Made by a program: the position numbers and the translations under genes | Notes under the pieces: generated by a model | The model's input: only the letters and a program-made list of their open reading frames with translations | What the model was told of the DNA's origin: nothing | The model's database searches: none | Part shown: piece by piece, positions 17,764 through 33,977 of the stretch | How the letters are laid out: each line of letters begins with the position of its first letter | How positions within the stretch are numbered: position 1 is the first letter of the stretch | Source: Candidatus Jordarchaeia archaeon | Lineage (GTDB): Archaea > Asgardarchaeota > Jordiarchaeia > Jordiarchaeales > Jordiarchaeaceae | Direction of reading: 5' to 3' | DNA length: 64,000 nucleotides | NCBI GenBank assembly: GCA_018383815.1 | Contig: JAHAWU010000001.1 | Span: 1 to 64,000, forward strand

Positions 17764-19086
17764 TTATTGGTGGATTACTTCGATTAGGTGGGTTGCACAT
17801 GAGACGCAGGGGTCGAATGTTCTTATGACTCTTTTTGCATTTTCTTTTAGTTTCTCTATGTCTTGTGTGTTTTGGTAGCTGTCTCTGCATGTTTCCAGCA
17901 ATTTTTGGTTGATGGTGGAGAGGTTGAGTTCTGTGGGGGTGATGATGGTTGCTGATTCAACTATGTTTTTGGTGTTTACTTTGTACTGGTGTATTAGTGT
18001 TCCTCTGGGGGCTTCTACCACTCCGATGCCTACTGGTGTGGCGATTTTGTTGAGTTGGGGGAGTTCTTGTTCTTCTATTAGTTCTGGCTCGTTGAGTATG
18101 AGTATTGCGTCGTACATTGAGGCAAGAATTTCTATGAGTCTGAGGAAGTTTGAGTAGAGGAGACTCTCCCTCCAGCTGGTGGGCACTTCGTCCATTAGGC
18201 TGTGTACTTCGTAGGCCCCGTATCTCTCGATTATTTGGTTTCTGGCCATGGGCCCAGTTAACACCAATTTTTCTCCGTTAATCTGTATCCCTTGCGATTT
18301 TTTCTCAGTGTCTATGTATTGGGGGTATTGTTCTGGTTCGAAGTCCGCTAGAACTTTTTTTCCTTTAGCGATGCGGAGTTTTCCCTCGTATAAGTTGAAG
18401 TTGCCGCCTTCATTTAGTGCCATGAATGCTGTTTCATCTATATTGTAGAACTTTTGAGGCTCACCGATTTTACCCATGTACTCTAAGAGTTTTTCTATTA
18501 TTCCTCTCACTGTGGTGGCGCCTCTTCTAAGGTTGGACTGTAGTCCTACCACTTCTTTTTCCGCCAATTTTTTAGAGACTCCGCCTACTAAGCTGGTTAC
18601 TGGGTGGGGCACCCTTCCACCAATGTGGTCTAGGAGCTCATTTCCAATTTTAATTATTCTGAACAATTTTTCAACCAGGTCCGTTTCCATTTTTGAAAAC
18701 TGTTGAACGCTGTACTTTTCATAACCATTTTCCGTCATCGCTTTTAGGTCGGGAAGCGCGAAGTAGAAGAAGTGTAATGCGTGAGACCGCATAAGCTCTC
18801 CAGCAAGAAGGAGTTTTCTCATAAGAATGCAGGATTTGGAGGGGGTAACATCGTATATTTTTTCCAGTGCTTTGCAGGCTGCTATTGCGTGTGCTGAGGA
18901 GCAGAGTCCACATATTCGGGATGTGATTCTGGGAACGTCCTCCACCATTTTTCCCACTAAAATTTTTTCGAATCCTCGAGGTAGATACATGTCAAAATTA
19001 GCGTTGTAGACCTCCTTGTCATTAAGGTATACTGTTATTTTAGCGTGTCCCTCAATTCTGGTAACCGGTTCAATAATTTTCTTCAT
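17764..19086 (-). CDS. NiFe hydrogenase large subunit (group 3, MvhA-like)
   Basis: PVTRIEGHAKITV; L1 motif RICGLCSSAH; L2 motif DPCVSCATH. Confidence 0.9.
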   Translation of the reverse strand: MKKIIEPVTRIEGHAKITVYLNDKEVYNANFDMYLPRGFEKILVGKMVEDVPRITSRICGLCSSAHAIAACKALEKIYDVTPSKSCILMRKLLLAGELMRSHALHFFYFALPDLKAMTENGYEKYSVQQFSKMETDLVEKLFRIIKIGNELLDHIGGRVPHPVTSLVGGVSKKLAEKEVVGLQSNLRRGATTVRGIIEKLLEYMGKIGEPQKFYNIDETAFMALNEGGNFNLYEGKLRIAKGKKVLADFEPEQYPQYIDTEKKSQGIQINGEKLVLTGPMARNQIIERYGAYEVHSLMDEVPTSWRESLLYSNFLRLIEILASMYDAILILNEPELIEEQELPQLNKIATPVGIGVVEAPRGTLIHQYKVNTKNIVESATIITPTELNLSTINQKLLETCRDSYQNTQDIEKLKENAKRVIRTFDPCVSCATHLIEVIHQ

Positions 19087-19092
19087 CCCATT

Positions 19093-19851
19093 TCACGTCC
19101 TTGGGCGGCGAAGCCTAAAAATAATTCCTTCATAGGTTCTCAACTTTTCTGATAGTTCCAGTGTTGAGAGGAAGTTGATTACATTAGCAGTATAGTCTAA
19201 ACCGTTGGGAGGCCCCATACAACCCTCGCAGGGTAGCCCCACTTTGATACATTTTGCATCGCATCCTTCACGGGTCACCGGACCTAAACAGAGCACGTTT
19301 TCGTCGAGGAAACAGCTTGTGGGAAACTTTTGGGGTTGTAATTTGTCTACACGGATTGTTTTGAATTTTTCCAGTTTGGGCCTCAAATCGCAAACTGCAC
19401 AGAGATTTCTGTTTGTTTCGGGAAGATTTCTTCCCTCAATTAGTGAAAGTATAGATGCTCCCAGAACATTTTCAGGTGGAGGGCAACCCGGAATAGCTCC
19501 ATCGATTTCTATGATTTTAGAGAGGGGGTCCTTCCGAGCATTCTGTGATAGGCTCTCTATCCCTCCAAACATGGCACAGGCGCCGAGGGCAATTATTTTT
19601 TTGGATGCTTTTCGCAGCTTTTTCAGTAATATTTCTTCATCCTTCTGGGTAACACATCCCTCAACAAGGGTAACGTCAGAATATTCTAGTTCCTCTTCCT
19701 CCTTTATCGTGTAGGGGTAGGAGTCCTCAACAAAGGGGAAGTATACTATTTCCGCGGATTTTACAAGGTTGAGGAAAACATCTAGACAGGTAAGTGTGGA
19801 GATGCAGCCGTTGCACGAGTTAAGGGAGATTGCTGAAAATTTTAGTTTCAC
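19093..19851 (-). CDS. NiFe hydrogenase small subunit (MvhG-like)
   Basis: NSCNGCISTLTCLD, EGCVTQKDE, GACAMFGGI, GCPPPEN, GLPCEGCMGPP; 4-bp ATGA overlap with the upstream HdrA gene. Confidence 0.88.
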   Translation of the reverse strand: MKLKFSAISLNSCNGCISTLTCLDVFLNLVKSAEIVYFPFVEDSYPYTIKEEEELEYSDVTLVEGCVTQKDEEILLKKLRKASKKIIALGACAMFGGIESLSQNARKDPLSKIIEIDGAIPGCPPPENVLGASILSLIEGRNLPETNRNLCAVCDLRPKLEKFKTIRVDKLQPQKFPTSCFLDENVLCLGPVTREGCDAKCIKVGLPCEGCMGPPNGLDYTANVINFLSTLELSEKLRTYEGIIFRLRRPRT

Positions 19852-22394
19852 GTCATCATCTCCGATAATTTGTCATGCATTAGGTTCACTATCTCTGCGA
19901 ACCTGTAGCCTTCTACCGCGTTTAGCGATGATAGAACTAATCTATTCTCAATTTGGGGAATTCCCACTTCCTTAAGTATTTTGATTTTTTTCTCCAACTT
20001 GTTGATTCCATCTATGTATCTGCATGAGCCATATTTACAACCCACAATTAGTACCCCATCGAATCCTCTCTCCAACGCTTTTAAAATAAACTCGGTGTCC
20101 ACTCTACCAGTACAGGGAACCATTTCAACGAAAATATTGGGATGGTACTGTATTTTCCTTAGCCCCGCCTCATCCGCCGCTGCATACCCGCAATGCTCAC
20201 AGCAGAAAGCCATAATTTTGGGTTTGTGGCTATACTTGCTGTAAACTTCTATGGATCTGAGAATCTTTTCTCTTGTTATCACATTCATCTCTAACGCCTT
20301 TGTGGGGCAAATGCTTACACAGACCCCACAGCCCTTACACTTGAAATCATCAATGGTAATCTTGTCATCCTCACAGGATATAGCGTTAAAGGGGCAGACA
20401 GACATACACAAACCACATAAACCACACTTATCATAGTCAATATCAATACCTCTAATGTCCGCAAGTAAATAATCCCTTGATAATAGAGAGATTATTTGAA
20501 GAGCTACTTCATTAGATTCCGCTATAGCCGTGTGATAATCTTTAGGCCCAGTAACAGTCCCACACCCAAAAATCCCTGAGCTCAGTGTCTCCTTGGACAT
20601 AAAACCCTTATCATCAAAAGCGAAATCCAAGGTTTTGCGAAGCTCAGCCAGCTCCCTACTTGGAACCATACCAATGTTTAGAATAACCAGGTCCGATTCA
20701 AAGTCCCCCTTCTCAGTACTTATCACTTTCCTCCCAACCTCCACTTTTATCCCTAATACCTTACCAGTATGAACAGTTTCTGGCAGGTTAGCGAGCGCCA
20801 ACCTATTTGCGGCGCTTTTACTGTTCTCTATAAAAACTTTGACTTCGCAGTTAGGAAGCTTCTCCCGAATCGCATCTAGATACTTTCTGGAAAGTATGTA
20901 GCAGTAATCGGAACTAAGACTGTAATCGCCCACACCCTGAATAATTACAATTTTTTGTGGCGCCTTGCCATCGGAAAGTTTTACAAGATTGCCCTGTGTA
21001 GGTCCATCAGAAGCAAGAATTCTCTCAAACTCCGCAGAAGTGACAACGTCCCAACGCGGATTATGATTGTAAAGCTCCAAGTCTTGGTACAGATCAGAGC
21101 CGATTGCTAAAACCTTCGCCCCAACTTTTATGGTCATTGTTACAGGCTTCTGATCCAGATTTATGGCTTTATTCAGACAGGCTCTTTCACAGACCCGACA
21201 TTCTCTGCATTTCTCAATATCCTCCTCGTCTATGGTTGCCGCATAGGGATAGGCCTGAACAAAGGGAATGTAGATTAGCTTCCTCTCATCCAAACCGTAC
21301 TCATACTCGTTTTTCTTAGTAATAGTGCATATACTCATGCACCGTTTACAACCAGTACACTTATTTTCATCCACGTAGCGTGGCTTGCGAACCAGTTCGA
21401 TGGTGAAGTTTCCCACATTTCCAGAAACGGATAGAATTTCAGTATTGGTGAGAATCTCAATATTTTTCTCATGTACCAGATACAGAATCTGTTCCGAGAG
21501 GAAACAGGATGCACAGTCTAGGACGCCCTCAATCTTGCTCCACCTTGCAACTTTTCCCCCTAGAGTAGGCGACTTTTCAATAAGGTAAACTTTTAATCCG
21601 GCCTCCGCCAATTTTAAAGCCAGATTCATACCCGCAATGCCCCCACCAATAACAGCCACACTTTTTTGAACCTCCACAGTTTTGGTTTTAATCTCTCTTT
21701 GAAGGATAACCCTCTCCACAGCAGCCTCAATGAGTAACCCGGCCTTTTCCAGGGCTTCCACAGGCTTTTTAGAATTCACCCAGCATAATTGCTCCCTAAT
21801 ATTAGCAAAATCAATGTTTGTTAGGGGTATAAGATTCCCAAATATGCGGTTAAATATGTGAGAGTGCGTACGAGGACTGCAGGCGGCAATAACCACCTTA
21901 TTTATAAAATTGTCCTTAAACCATTTCTGAATCTTTTTCTGATTCTTCTCCTGACAAAGATTATCAAAAACCGCAACGGACACCACATTATTTATGCGGG
22001 ACACACGGTTCTTCAAAGCCTCCACACTAATTGACTGCTCAATCTCTGAGCCACAAGTACAGATAAGTATCCCCACGCGGCTCAACTCGGTTTTTCGGGA
22101 CTCAATTCTTTCTATCTCTTCACCTGAGAGAATCTTCTCATTTAACTCCATTATTTTGATGACCGTTTTTCCTTCTTCCGAAAGCTTGTAAGCTTTTCCC
22201 TCTTTGGTAATTAGGCTTCCCAACTTTGTGAGGTGAAAATTCAACTGCCCCGTTGTTTCAATGTTGAGCTCTTTGAGAAGATCTGAGTACTGCATGTAAC
22301 CCTCTTTTTCTAATAATAGGAGGATTTTTCTTCTGAGGGGGTGGCCTAAAACATTATATAAGTCCATCTGTGTCACCGCGTTGTATTTTTTCAC
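19848..22394 (-). CDS. Winged-helix DNA-binding domain / HdrA / MvhD triple fusion
   Basis: ArsR-like wHTH (residues about 1-90: LGHPLRRKILLLLEKEGYMQYSDLLKELN...), HdrA FAD domain (VIGGGIAGMNLALKLAEAGLKVYLIEK) with ferredoxin clusters, C-terminal MvhD-like domain (FCCEHCGYAAADEAG...PCTGRVD...GCKYGSCRY). Confidence 0.88.
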   Translation of the reverse strand: MKKYNAVTQMDLYNVLGHPLRRKILLLLEKEGYMQYSDLLKELNIETTGQLNFHLTKLGSLITKEGKAYKLSEEGKTVIKIMELNEKILSGEEIERIESRKTELSRVGILICTCGSEIEQSISVEALKNRVSRINNVVSVAVFDNLCQEKNQKKIQKWFKDNFINKVVIAACSPRTHSHIFNRIFGNLIPLTNIDFANIREQLCWVNSKKPVEALEKAGLLIEAAVERVILQREIKTKTVEVQKSVAVIGGGIAGMNLALKLAEAGLKVYLIEKSPTLGGKVARWSKIEGVLDCASCFLSEQILYLVHEKNIEILTNTEILSVSGNVGNFTIELVRKPRYVDENKCTGCKRCMSICTITKKNEYEYGLDERKLIYIPFVQAYPYAATIDEEDIEKCRECRVCERACLNKAINLDQKPVTMTIKVGAKVLAIGSDLYQDLELYNHNPRWDVVTSAEFERILASDGPTQGNLVKLSDGKAPQKIVIIQGVGDYSLSSDYCYILSRKYLDAIREKLPNCEVKVFIENSKSAANRLALANLPETVHTGKVLGIKVEVGRKVISTEKGDFESDLVILNIGMVPSRELAELRKTLDFAFDDKGFMSKETLSSGIFGCGTVTGPKDYHTAIAESNEVALQIISLLSRDYLLADIRGIDIDYDKCGLCGLCMSVCPFNAISCEDDKITIDDFKCKGCGVCVSICPTKALEMNVITREKILRSIEVYSKYSHKPKIMAFCCEHCGYAAADEAGLRKIQYHPNIFVEMVPCTGRVDTEFILKALERGFDGVLIVGCKYGSCRYIDGINKLEKKIKILKEVGIPQIENRLVLSSLNAVEGYRFAEIVNLMHDKLSEMMT

Positions 22395-22443
22395 CGATTT
22401 ATCAAGGAAAGTTTATTGGTTAATAAAAATTTTCGTAAATTAA

Positions 22444-22640
22444 AATTGACAACTATATTTGTCAAATACATCGTTCTTATTGTCTTAATATTTATTGTAA
22501 CTGGTTTAATAAACTTGACTTGCCAGACAATTATTGGAATAAAATTTAATTGTCAAGAAAAATTGGATTTTCCTCTTTTTATTCAAACTATACAACAATT
22601 TTCAAGACAATTAAAATTGTCATAGTTCAGAAAAGACAAG
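22444..22640. promoter_or_regulatory. Cluster of GACAATT/AATTGTC (TTGTC) inverted repeats between divergent genes; candidate operator array
   Basis: TTGACAA-6-TTGTCAA (22446-22465), GACAATT-15-AATTGTC (22526-22554), GACAATT-AA-AATTGTC (22606-22621), plus additional TTGTC/GACAA half-sites. Confidence 0.55.
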
Positions 22641-22708
22641 TTAAGATTAGTTTTAAAACCTAACACCCTTTTATTGTTTAATCAGAGAATGAATGGAGGA
22701 AGGAAAAA

Positions 22709-23353
22709 ATGGAAGAATTGGAAATTAGAAAATTGCGTAGGAAAACTCTCACGGTGGTATTGTATGAAGAGGGGAACTCCCAGGCTTCCAAACATTCCGA
22801 TTGCTTCAATGAACAAGATGGGAATCCCTTACTAAACGTTATTCTAACCTATCATCCCGACTTTATAACTGCAGACAAAGATTGCATGTTTGGCGTTAAC
22901 GGTCAAAGCGTGAATGTGGAGGAATTCAGAGAGGTAGGGGTTCCACTCTTCAGATTAGGAATACCTCAAAACGCCCGATTATATTTGGAACAGGAAATAG
23001 ATGACCTGAGAGAAAAAATAGAAGAATTAAAGGAAGAATTGGAGAGATTCCTCTCCGAGAACCCAAAAAATGCGAGCACCTACAAGGGACAAAACCTGAA
23101 ATCCCTGATAGAATTCTACGAGAAGGAAGCAGACGAAAAAGAGGAATACATGAATACTGTAATAACCGCTAGGTGGATAATAAAACAATTAATCGACCTA
23201 GCCAGCGAAGTGCCTGAAAAGGAAGTAACCTGTATACACATCACCCCCTCCAAACTATTCGACGAATTAGCACAACAAATGAGCGAGACAGACTTGGTAG
23301 TTCTGCCGATGAGAACGACCACCCACATGAAGCAAAATGAATTAGTACATTAA
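22709..23353 (+). CDS. Uncharacterized protein paralogous to the N-terminal domain of the next gene (possibly TraB-like)
   Basis: YHPDF..., GVPLFRLGIPQNARLYL..., VTARW-like pattern aligns with RPDF..., GIPYSYVDIADNARDYI..., REAW in the following ORF; ORF follows GGAGGAAGG. Confidence 0.65.
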   Translation: MEELEIRKLRRKTLTVVLYEEGNSQASKHSDCFNEQDGNPLLNVILTYHPDFITADKDCMFGVNGQSVNVEEFREVGVPLFRLGIPQNARLYLEQEIDDLREKIEELKEELERFLSENPKNASTYKGQNLKSLIEFYEKEADEKEEYMNTVITARWIIKQLIDLASEVPEKEVTCIHITPSKLFDELAQQMSETDLVVLPMRTTTHMKQNELVH

Positions 23354-23376
23354 AAAAATTATCTGGAGGGTTAATA

Positions 23377-25056
23377 ATGGAAGTTTTAGAATTAGAGCCA
23401 CTGAAGGGACAGAAACTAAGGATAGTTATGGTTGAAAGCGAACATGGAATTGACTGGTACCTACTAGAACCATCCAATTCCCCTAAAGACTTTTTCTCAG
23501 AACTAAGAATTATGTCCAAGGAGTACAGAGAATTCATAAACAAGATGGTTGAAGAGTATAGACCCGACTTTTGCCTTGAGGAGAGGGGAATGAGAAGTAT
23601 TGAAGAGTTTCTATATGACAATCCTTTGGTGGATGTTTTCAAAAAACATGGAATTCCCTACAGCTATGTGGACATTGCAGACAACGCCCGCGACTACATC
23701 TGGTCCACAATAAGCAGGCAACAGGAATTGAGAAACGCTCTAATTGAACAGATTACTAAAATTCTTGCCAAAAATCCTGAAGCAAGAAAGAATGATGAAA
23801 ACTTCCTAAAACTGGTTACTTGGGCTCAATACTTTGAGCAAAATTTGAAGGAAATTGAGGAGGACATAAAATTTAGGGTTCGCGAAGCATGGATGATGAG
23901 TGGCGTCCTAAACCAGGCAAGGGAAATCAAAAAGAAAAATGTCACCGCCATGCTTATATGTGACCCCCGCCATGCAGATGGAATATCCAAGCTGTGCACC
24001 GATCTAGATGTAGATTTAGTCACGGTTAAAGCAAAAAAGGAAATAAATAACAAGGAGGAAACCGCTGAGCTTTCCAGCCTCCTTGAATCTAGCCATGTTG
24101 AAATAATACCCATAGTTGTGAAGAAGAAGGAGCAGAGACAACACATATTATACTTCTTGGATACAGACCAGCATGCAAGCCCCTTTGACATGAACATGGC
24201 TTACGACGCTGGCTTCGACGTGGTCATTCCTCTGGGTGGAGTAAAGCCAGACGAGGCTCAAAGACTGGTACAAGACATAATATTCTCCCGAGGACCTAAA
24301 GGAGCAAAGTACACCGCAATCTTTGTCGGTGGAAGCAATGTAAATCAAGCCCAAGAAATATTTGAGAAAGCCGTTGAATCCTTGGTGCCACCCTTCGAAG
24401 TTCCAATAATTTTTGATCCAAGAGGAGCCTGCACCACCGCCTCAGCACTGGTAGCGAAGGCTGAAGAAGCCGTGATTACCCTTAATCTGGGCAATATTGA
24501 AAAAATGAAAGTTGCAGTTCTAGGGGGAACAGGGCCTGTAGGAAGATTCGCCTGCATACTGGCAGCAAAGCTAGGCTGCAAAGTATACATGGTGGAAACC
24601 TGGTCTGGTGCCAGTGAACAATATGTGAAAACTGTAGCCACGAATCTAAACGAAAAGTTCGGTGTGGAGATAGAAGGAGTTTTTGCCCCGAACAAGGAGC
24701 GAATGGAAATAGTACAGGATGCTGACATGGTATTCTCTGTGGCGAAGGCAGGTGTACAACTCCTCAGCAAAGAGGACGTAGAAGGTCTAAAACCGAAAAA
24801 ATTGCTCCTCGATGTCAACGCTGTCCCTCCCTTAGGAATAGGTGGACTTGACCGAAACGACGATAAAAAGGAGTTGAAACCCGGAGTTTACGGCGTTGGT
24901 TCATTGGCTATTGGTGCGCTAAAAAGGCAAGTCGAGGAAAATCTACTAAGAAAGGCTAAGGAAGTTAAAGGAAAAGCGGTCTTCGACCATCTGGCCGCAT
25001 TTGAAACTGCAAGGGAAATTCTTCTCGAAAAACCAGTCATCTCCAAGGCTGCGTGA
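23377..25056 (+). CDS. Fusion of an uncharacterized (possibly TraB-like) domain with an MtdB-like methylene-tetrahydromethanopterin dehydrogenase
   Basis: C-terminal about 310 aa: ILYFLDTDQHASPFDMNMAYDAGFDVVIPLGGV, FVGGSNV, AVLGGTGPVGRFACILAAKLG, NAVPPLGIGGLD, YGVGSLAIGALK, matching MtdB organisation. Confidence 0.8.
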   Translation: MEVLELEPLKGQKLRIVMVESEHGIDWYLLEPSNSPKDFFSELRIMSKEYREFINKMVEEYRPDFCLEERGMRSIEEFLYDNPLVDVFKKHGIPYSYVDIADNARDYIWSTISRQQELRNALIEQITKILAKNPEARKNDENFLKLVTWAQYFEQNLKEIEEDIKFRVREAWMMSGVLNQAREIKKKNVTAMLICDPRHADGISKLCTDLDVDLVTVKAKKEINNKEETAELSSLLESSHVEIIPIVVKKKEQRQHILYFLDTDQHASPFDMNMAYDAGFDVVIPLGGVKPDEAQRLVQDIIFSRGPKGAKYTAIFVGGSNVNQAQEIFEKAVESLVPPFEVPIIFDPRGACTTASALVAKAEEAVITLNLGNIEKMKVAVLGGTGPVGRFACILAAKLGCKVYMVETWSGASEQYVKTVATNLNEKFGVEIEGVFAPNKERMEIVQDADMVFSVAKAGVQLLSKEDVEGLKPKKLLLDVNAVPPLGIGGLDRNDDKKELKPGVYGVGSLAIGALKRQVEENLLRKAKEVKGKAVFDHLAAFETAREILLEKPVISKAA

Positions 25057-32348: not shown

Positions 32349-33977
32349 ATGAAGCTGGATGAGCGTATAGAAATTTATGGGAAAATGTCTGTGGCGCTTG
32401 AATATATTGAGTCTTGCAAAGAATTTGCCAGTCTGATTCCTGAGGTGAGAACAAATCTGGTTTATGCTAGAGCTAATCCTAAAACTCCAGAAGATGTCTT
32501 AGCTGTTGAGGGACGCATAACTGTAGTAAATGGTATGCCTCACGCTGCAGGGAAGCTAAAGTTTGGGGCGTCAAGTCACATGGCGCGGCTCATCATAGAA
32601 ATAAACAGGAATGACCCCTCAATAAGAGCTGGCATAAACTTTGCCTGCAACCCCCATCTGATAAAGTGGCTGGAAAGGTACTGTGGGAAGAAGGGTTGGG
32701 TGTTTAGTGTAATTGACCGCTCCAAGGAGCCCGAGGAGGTCAAGCAGGTAGAGGGTGCGTCTATGCCCTGGAAGGTGAAGGAAACCATTCGAGCAGCAGG
32801 AGGAAGGGTGCCTAAGGTTTTCTACGAGGCGGGGGCTGTGGGCAAGGAAGACCTTACGGTACTTGTGGGAAAGGATCCAATGGAAGTTGCGATGGATACC
32901 TGTGAATTAGCGAAAGAATATGCTAAGAGTCTTAGTCCCCCACCCAAAGTGGGCAAAATTGACTTGGAAACGTTTACCAATTATCTACTGCAACGTCTTG
33001 GGAAAAGGGATGAAACAGTTCTTGTACCCCCGTTGACGGGTGTTGACGCTGCGGTAATTGATATAGGTAATAATAAAGTTCTCGTTGTTGCTGAGGATCC
33101 GATATTTTCTATTCCGAAGCAGCCTTTGGAGATGTTTGGCTGGTACACTGTTCACATTGGGGCGAGTGATGTTGCCGTTATGGGAGTTAAACCCCGCTAC
33201 ATGACCTATTCGCTTTTGATGCCTCCAGAAACTAGGGATGAGGGGTTTAGAACTATTGTGGATTCCATTCATCAGACTGCTGTGGAGCTTGACATTGCCA
33301 TAGTTGGAGGACATACCGGCTACTATCCCGGGTTTGCTTCACCTACCATTGGGGGAATAGCGGTTTTTGCCATTGCAGACAGAGACGGTTATGTTACGCC
33401 TGCGGGCGCAAAGCCTGGCGATGATGTCATTTTGACTAAGGGGCCTGCGATAGAGACGGTGGGAATACTGTCTGTTCTGCGTGAGCCAGAATTACTGGAG
33501 AAGTATCCCAGGTCACTGGTGGAAAAGGCGAAGGCTCTGTGCAAAGAGATGACCGTGGTTAAGGATGCATTAACCGCAATGGAGGTGGGCGGCGTTACCG
33601 CAATGCATGATGCAACGGAGGGAGGAGTGATAGGTGGACTCTTTGAGATAGCGAATGCAAGCAATGTGGGTATGGAAATTGATGAGGCTTCCTTCATTTA
33701 TCCAGAAGAGGTGAAAATGGTTTGTGAAGCGTTCAACATTGACCCCGTTGCAGCAATTGCTGAGGGCTCCCTGCTCATCACTGCTAAACCAACGCACTCC
33801 AAACAAATAATCAAAAGGCTTGGGGAAGTGGGAATAAAGGCATCCATTATAGGAAAAGTTATAGGCGACACAAAAACAAGAACAATGAAGAGAATCGACG
33901 GAAGTGAGGTACCATTAGAAATCCCGAGACAAGACCCCTTCTGGCCGGTCTTCTTTGAAGGCGTAGAAAAAGGGTAA
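32349..33977 (+). CDS. ThiN domain fused to AIR-synthase-related (ThiL/HypE-like) domain
   Basis: N-terminal ThiN-like pattern (PEVRTNLVYARANPKTPEDVLAVEGRI...KFGASSHMARLIIE...NFACN...DRSKEPEEVK); C-terminal AIRS (GASDVAVMGVKPRYM, GGHTGYYPG, MHDATEGGVIGGL). Confidence 0.78.
   Translation: MKLDERIEIYGKMSVALEYIESCKEFASLIPEVRTNLVYARANPKTPEDVLAVEGRITVVNGMPHAAGKLKFGASSHMARLIIEINRNDPSIRAGINFACNPHLIKWLERYCGKKGWVFSVIDRSKEPEEVKQVEGASMPWKVKETIRAAGGRVPKVFYEAGAVGKEDLTVLVGKDPMEVAMDTCELAKEYAKSLSPPPKVGKIDLETFTNYLLQRLGKRDETVLVPPLTGVDAAVIDIGNNKVLVVAEDPIFSIPKQPLEMFGWYTVHIGASDVAVMGVKPRYMTYSLLMPPETRDEGFRTIVDSIHQTAVELDIAIVGGHTGYYPGFASPTIGGIAVFAIADRDGYVTPAGAKPGDDVILTKGPAIETVGILSVLREPELLEKYPRSLVEKAKALCKEMTVVKDALTAMEVGGVTAMHDATEGGVIGGLFEIANASNVGMEIDEASFIYPEEVKMVCEAFNIDPVAAIAEGSLLITAKPTHSKQIIKRLGEVGIKASIIGKVIGDTKTRTMKRIDGSEVPLEIPRQDPFWPVFFEGVEKG

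Follow-up and report, generated by a model that had tools for sequence, protein, structure and literature searches.

The locus lies in a window of 64,000 nucleotides (positions 1 to 64,000 of contig JAHAWU010000001.1, assembly GCA_018383815.1) from the metagenome-assembled genome of a Jordarchaeia-type Asgard archaeon, and consists of two divergent arms on either side of a 314-bp intergenic region (22395-22708). The right arm, on the plus strand, holds two open reading frames separated by 23 bp. The first encodes a free-standing protein of 214 aa (22709..23353) and the second a fused protein of 559 aa (23377..25056), in which an uncharacterised N-terminal domain (N-domain; residues 1-245, 23377..24111) is joined to an MtdA/MtdB-like domain (Mtd; 24124..25053), a predicted NAD(P)-dependent methylene-H4MPT dehydrogenase. 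The left arm, on the minus strand, encodes an HdrA protein (19848..22394) with flavin and 4Fe-4S architecture, which carries a winged-helix domain at its N-terminus (DUF7347/HTH, 22152..22364) and an MvhD/FlpD domain at its C-terminus, together with the MvhG/VhuG-like small subunit (19093..19851) and the MvhA/VhuA-like large subunit (17764..19086) of a [NiFe] hydrogenase. Two operator-like palindromes lie in the intergenic region: a strand-less, exact TTGAYAA-N6-TTRTCAA (TTGACAACTATATTTGTCAA, 22446..22465) and a second copy (22604..22623) whose core, GACAATTAAAATTGTC at 22606-22621, is centred approximately 96 bp before the start of the 214-aa gene. The closest named relative is Ca. Jordarchaeum madagascariense (locus L031), of the class Jordarchaeia, at 80% protein identity, and both palindromes are conserved there.

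The first-pass annotation had read the C-terminal half of the 559-aa protein as MtdB-like, and this is borne out. Residues 269-348 match the Pfam family Mpt_N (PF09176; E 3.3e-30, 104.5 bits against a cut-off of 27), residues 256-552 match the MtdA/MtdB chains 6tlk, 6tge and 1lu9 in the PDB (E 1e-37 to 1e-38), and the family residues are intact: the motifs GTGxVG (the nucleotide-binding GTGPVG, plus strand, ~24526-24543), DPxG..TTA, D.NA.PP.G and G.L.IG..K are common to the protein and bacterial MtdB. Judged by sequence, the enzyme therefore belongs to the MtdA/MtdB family and brings a new accessory family with it. The enzymes of Methylorubrum and other bacteria represented by these structures have the same catalytic domain, Mpt_N plus a Rossmann fold, and the same motifs, but they lack the N-domain and the small paralog; unlike them, the window enzyme is archaeal, is linked to an HdrA-hydrogenase and occurs alongside an F420-dependent Mtd. 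Homologs on bacterial plasmids are plain Mtd only, with 38-41% identity to the window Mtd, and a search of bacterial plasmids found no N-domain.

In Rossmann folds, an acidic end of beta-2 (VETW) favours NAD whereas SR favours NADP. The window copy carries VETW (plus strand, ~24592-24603), other copies carry SR and the solved MtdA has GR, from which we infer that the window enzyme prefers NAD. Mtd copies adjacent to NfnA are almost all of the NADP-type SR and hydrogenase-only copies are mostly of the acidic VETW type (12 versus 1, p 1e-5), an association that cannot be called independent because it reduces to about four changes on the Mtd tree, mainly one split inside genome family f3. Several f3 genomes hold both types. 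Two loci, L034 (G024:C52) and L114 (G130:C8), each contain two complete small/Mtd sets with the opposite signatures VETW and SR, apparently NAD-type and NADP-type isoforms encoded side by side.

The 214-aa protein is a small paralog of the N-domain. An alignment by eye had paired it, over its whole length, with the N-terminal approximately 240 aa of the fused protein, and the similarity proves significant: BLASTP aligns it nearly full length with residues 1-227 (E 7e-11, 22% identity), and the small-paralog and N-domain profiles match over 203 columns (E 1.7e-30). With profiles enlarged to 76 and 57 sequences the match reaches E 7e-31, against E 0.16-0.89 for unrelated control families, and the likeness is thus homology and not a chance or coiled-coil match. 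The small paralog was modelled from four sequences (pLDDT 79) as an alpha/beta domain with a long antiparallel helical hairpin, and the predicted order of secondary-structure elements is equal in the N-domain (AlphaFold model of the fused protein, pLDDT 52, using only the window, L031 and L032 sequences). No invariant cysteines were found in the alignments of the N-domain and the small paralog, which speaks against an Fe-S role for them. Hence, the two probably serve Mtd as structural or gating subunits rather than carrying electrons.

The pair is conserved across Asgard archaea and linked to the HdrA-hydrogenase arm, as a survey of the genome neighbourhoods showed. Among 232 Asgard genomes, 70 have the N-domain family, 74 have Mpt_N and 67 have both (Fisher p 4e-46, a value that ignores phylogeny). 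The hydrogenase subtype, defined by HydLS and a winged-helix HdrA-MvhD, is found in 56 of the 232 genomes, 52 of which also have the N-domain (p 2e-31, again ignoring phylogeny); in 41 of these 52 the two share a contig, in 32 they are at most 7.5 kb apart, and the N-domain genes are usually divergently adjacent to the hydrogenase. Small paralog, N-domain and Mtd are often three adjacent genes in family f3 and elsewhere N-domain and Mtd are fused, which makes these two functional partners; on the Mtd tree the fused forms are scattered among the split ones. Such recurrent fusion and fission supports a physical partnership of N-domain and Mtd. Of the earlier proposal of a heteromeric or regulatory pair, it is the heteromeric partnership that gains support from this pattern.

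Beyond the Asgards, three genomes from a single family of small-genome archaea (f42) turned out to carry the fused gene, and no hydrogenase lies near it in the two of these with a clean gene call. Both f2 and f42 genomes hold the fused Mtd without the hydrogenase, and the enzyme therefore does not require it. A PhoU/AbrB-type regulator gene adjoins the fused gene in two of the three f42 genomes, as in f2. These regulator genes (L195:9619-10647 and L037:7349-8356), conserved neighbours of the fused Mtd in hydrogenase-free genomes of two distant families, have 35% identity. NfnA, NfnB, FrhB and FrhB-NfnB fusion genes are recurrent neighbours of NAD(P)-Mtd loci. One such fusion, of 928 aa (L040:8478-11264), joins an F420-type FrhB module to an NfnB/GltD-like module beside NfnA and Mtd genes and, from its domains, may act as an F420H2:NAD(P)/ferredoxin oxidoreductase. 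Pfam gives no match for its N-terminal ~110 aa and does not support a winged helix suspected there.

On the hydrogenase side, HdrA matches the NCBIfam model HdrA2 with E 8e-175 at 583 bits, below the curated threshold of 1100, and has the expected flavin and 4Fe-4S architecture; 28 cysteines are nearly invariant in the aligned homologs. The metal-binding motifs of the large subunit, L1 RxCGxC and L2 DPCxxC (RICGLC and DPCVSC in the window), are invariant in eight homologs, and its scores stay below the subfamily cut-offs (188 bits of 800 for VhuA). The winged-helix domain scores 44.2-56.2 bits against a cut-off of 27.6 and is present in all 11 aligned HdrA proteins; nearly all homologs looked at keep it, those of f14 genomes without the N-domain included. 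The hydrogenase operon has no further subunit gene, and hence no HdrB or HdrC, in the window or in most syntenic loci. The locus shares the MvhA, MvhG and MvhD modules and an HdrA with flavin and Fe-S motifs with the bifurcating MvhADG-HdrA (group 3c-like) complexes, but it differs from them in having no adjacent HdrBC, an MvhD fused to HdrA, a winged helix on the HdrA N-terminus, and VhuA and HdrA scores far below the curated cut-offs. F420-Mtd and group 3c HdrABC-Mvh have been described in Asgard archaea (PMC8498797, PMC11291895, PMC9723677). The literature searched, which excluded subscription papers and preprints, contains neither a description of the N-domain family nor a paper on a winged-helix HdrA fusion with an archaeal hydrogenase. 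In some f3 genomes, the HdrA-HydS-HydL operon is headed by an FrhB-like gene of 363-387 aa, with the operator ~80 bp before its start (L157:5401, L150:6482, also L151, L152 and L156, and by position L230 and L234).

Of what the analysis adds, the palindrome between the two arms and the winged-helix HdrA are of greatest interest. The 20-bp consensus, generalised as GAYAA-N6-TTRTC, occurs in 27 of 29 homologous intergenic regions from several families, compared with 0.1 (maximum 2) in Markov shuffles, and only with the N6 spacing: other spacings from 0 to 12 give 0-1 matches in the same regions. Across 1.2 Mb of neighbourhoods, nearly all matches fall in promoters of the small paralog, winged-helix HdrA, fused Mtd, NfnA or FrhB-like genes. 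A palindrome GATAA...TTATC, considered as a separate element, is the same operator with C/T degeneracy. In f11, in which the genes are co-directional, HdrA is preceded by the site, and two of three genomes have a further copy ahead of the fused Mtd. Both Jordarchaeia genomes with the locus have a single exact copy of the full palindrome, at this spot (the window genome has 3.79 Mb), and one-mismatch matches in the window genome are not above a reversed-control background; the signal is therefore local. The site is found upstream of 39 of 60 N-domain/Mtd operons in genomes with the hydrogenase subtype and of 0 of 19 in those without it (p 2e-7, ignoring phylogeny); the other 21 operon heads in the hydrogenase-bearing genomes have no operator within 400 bp.

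Since some of the data in which the pattern was counted had also served to define it, the cleanest test is that on further HdrA promoters, of which 5 of 10 carry the operator (3 of 8 among those strictly unseen before; shuffles 0.04). Two operator-negative promoters in this set have the site ~1.3 kb further upstream, where related loci carry the operon-heading FrhB-like gene. As the operator tracks the winged-helix HdrA, the winged helix is the leading candidate for its binder and, judged from these genomic patterns, probably the domain that binds it.

The whole is best explained, with a probability of roughly 0.5, by a heteromeric NAD(P)-dependent Mtd that is co-regulated with the HdrA-hydrogenase through the 20-bp operator. 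The locus would then be a divergent, co-regulated operon pair. Its right arm would supply a second, NAD(P)-linked methylene-H4MPT dehydrogenase, in which the Mtd domain forms a heteromer with the coiled-coil-bearing N-domain and the small paralog, and the latter two would position, stabilise or gate the enzyme. Its left arm would be an HdrA-MvhD-[NiFe] hydrogenase without HdrBC that exchanges electrons among H2, ferredoxin and probably a deazaflavin or NAD(P). The dedicated operator TTGAYAA-N6-TTRTCAA would control both arms, with the winged helix fused to HdrA as the most likely DNA binder, and a redox subunit could thereby signal the hydrogen or redox state to the genes that serve H2 and C1 oxidation. 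This suggests common control of one-carbon metabolism and hydrogen/redox state. The link from H2/ferredoxin to C1/NAD(P)H flux that the first-pass annotation had put forward is supported genetically, by co-localisation and the shared operator; at the biochemical level it is a prediction.

A stronger version, which we regard as possible but tentative, makes the hydrogenase-HdrA itself a transcription factor that switches its own operon and the C1 dehydrogenase on H2 or on the flavin/Fe-S redox state, with the N-domain and its paralog as a heteromer of a new class that regulates Mtd. In the HupUV/RH type of H2-sensing hydrogenase, hydrogen is likewise coupled to transcription, but the signal passes via separate kinases, whereas here a putative DNA-binding domain is fused to the electron-transfer subunit. 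If true, the winged helix fused to HdrA would tie an electron-transfer flavoprotein physically and directly to transcription. Asgard archaea are the closest relatives of eukaryotes, and the routing of electrons between H2, ferredoxin, F420, NAD(P)H and C1 units is central to syntrophy models of eukaryogenesis, although it is known mostly from genome inference. The locus offers a specific, testable module, with a second methylene-H4MPT dehydrogenase, a new accessory family, an HdrA with a DNA-binding domain and an operator that joins them.

The regulatory half of the co-regulated heteromer could be dispensed with if the enzyme were an ordinary NAD(P)-dependent Mtd, the accessory domain served folding or oligomerisation only, the operator belonged to an unrelated transcription factor and the HdrA winged helix were vestigial. 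Local palindromes are present at many archaeal operons, the operator may indeed be bound by an unrelated regulator, and the fused enzyme exists in genomes without the hydrogenase. Family f14, in which a winged-helix HdrA hydrogenase occurs without the N-domain, points the same way: the promoters of all four loci looked at lack the operator, and the single f14 match (L225) falls within coding sequence where hydS meets hdrA. In f14 the site may have diverged, or another regulator may act. Set against this, the operator follows the presence of the winged-helix HdrA, it is essentially local in the genome and sits within HdrA's own promoter, and the winged helix is kept in all aligned HdrA homologs, which leaves such a coincidence of unrelated parts unlikely, if still a serious contender.

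Physical coupling has a precedent. In acetogen MetVF-HdrABC-MvhD, and in related HdrA/MvhD clusters with MetFV known in other archaea (PMC9012536), an HdrA/MvhD cluster is likewise linked to a C1-pterin oxidoreductase; the window locus differs in that its C1 enzyme is a dehydrogenase (Mtd) and in its novel accessory family, divergent transcription and shared operator. By analogy with MetVF, the N-domain and small paralog could dock Mtd onto the HdrA-hydrogenase and couple it directly to flavin-based bifurcation, which would fit the tight gene linkage, the shared operator and a window HdrA with no HdrBC beside it. However, neither accessory protein has the invariant cysteines of an Fe-S carrier, the fused protein persists without the hydrogenase in f2 and f42, and Mtd transfers hydride to a soluble nucleotide. 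Direct docking is thus improbable.

The co-regulated NAD(P)-Mtd probably takes H4MPT as its substrate, to judge from the genomic context. The window genome also encodes an F420-dependent Mtd and Mch, side by side on contig C65, so that the window enzyme appears as a second way out of the C1 pathway, one linked to NAD(P); the F420-dependent enzyme (PF01993) performs the same C1 step but belongs to a different family, uses a different coenzyme and is encoded by a separate gene. In eight f3 loci, the genes for F420-Mtd and NAD(P)-Mtd are 2.4-2.8 kb apart, which points to H4MPT. Methylene-H4F or another C1-pterin is a less convincing choice: MtdA of methylotrophs is active on both pterins, and both H4F and H4MPT steps are reported to be encoded in Asgard archaea (PMC11291895), but the frequent proximity of F420-Mtd in f3 and the Mch gene in the same genome make an H4F enzyme rather poorly favoured. 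Most likely, then, the locus provides the methylene/methenyl-H4MPT step with an additional exit or entry that is linked to nicotinamide.

For the N-domain (residues 1-245), no Pfam family was found, including in a scan of 17 family members, and no sequence relative in the PDB; the small paralog likewise has no Pfam or PDB relative, and its pLDDT 79 model gave no PDB fold match at E <= 0.001 (best E 0.19). A vague resemblance to TraB/PrgY-like proteins noted earlier was examined by hhalign against Asgard TraB alignments, with both small and enlarged profiles and with unrelated families as controls. That the two proteins are diverged domains of the TraB/PrgY/GumN type, retaining some hydrolase or ligand-binding function, is very improbable: the predicted secondary-structure order equals that of TraB, and the hhalign match, with a weak motif register (RxxxM...GHxxG), ranks above the controls, but it is not significant (E 0.026-0.09, probability below 2%), the PDB fold search gave no match, the beta-1 GTxH motif is absent, and the Pfam scans, including that of the 17 members, found no PF01963.

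Two further genes deserve mention. A tiny gene of 77-86 aa (L044:12148-12399 and equivalents), near Cdc48-like and F420-Mtd genes, clusters by sequence with the small-paralog family, and in L117 and L126 the operator lies ~112-119 bp before its start. Elsewhere in the window, an unusual fusion of 542 aa (32349-33977) combines an N-terminus similar to the C-terminal part of the bifunctional HMP/HMP-P kinase model (PRK08573) with a ThiL/HypE/SelD-like C-terminal half.
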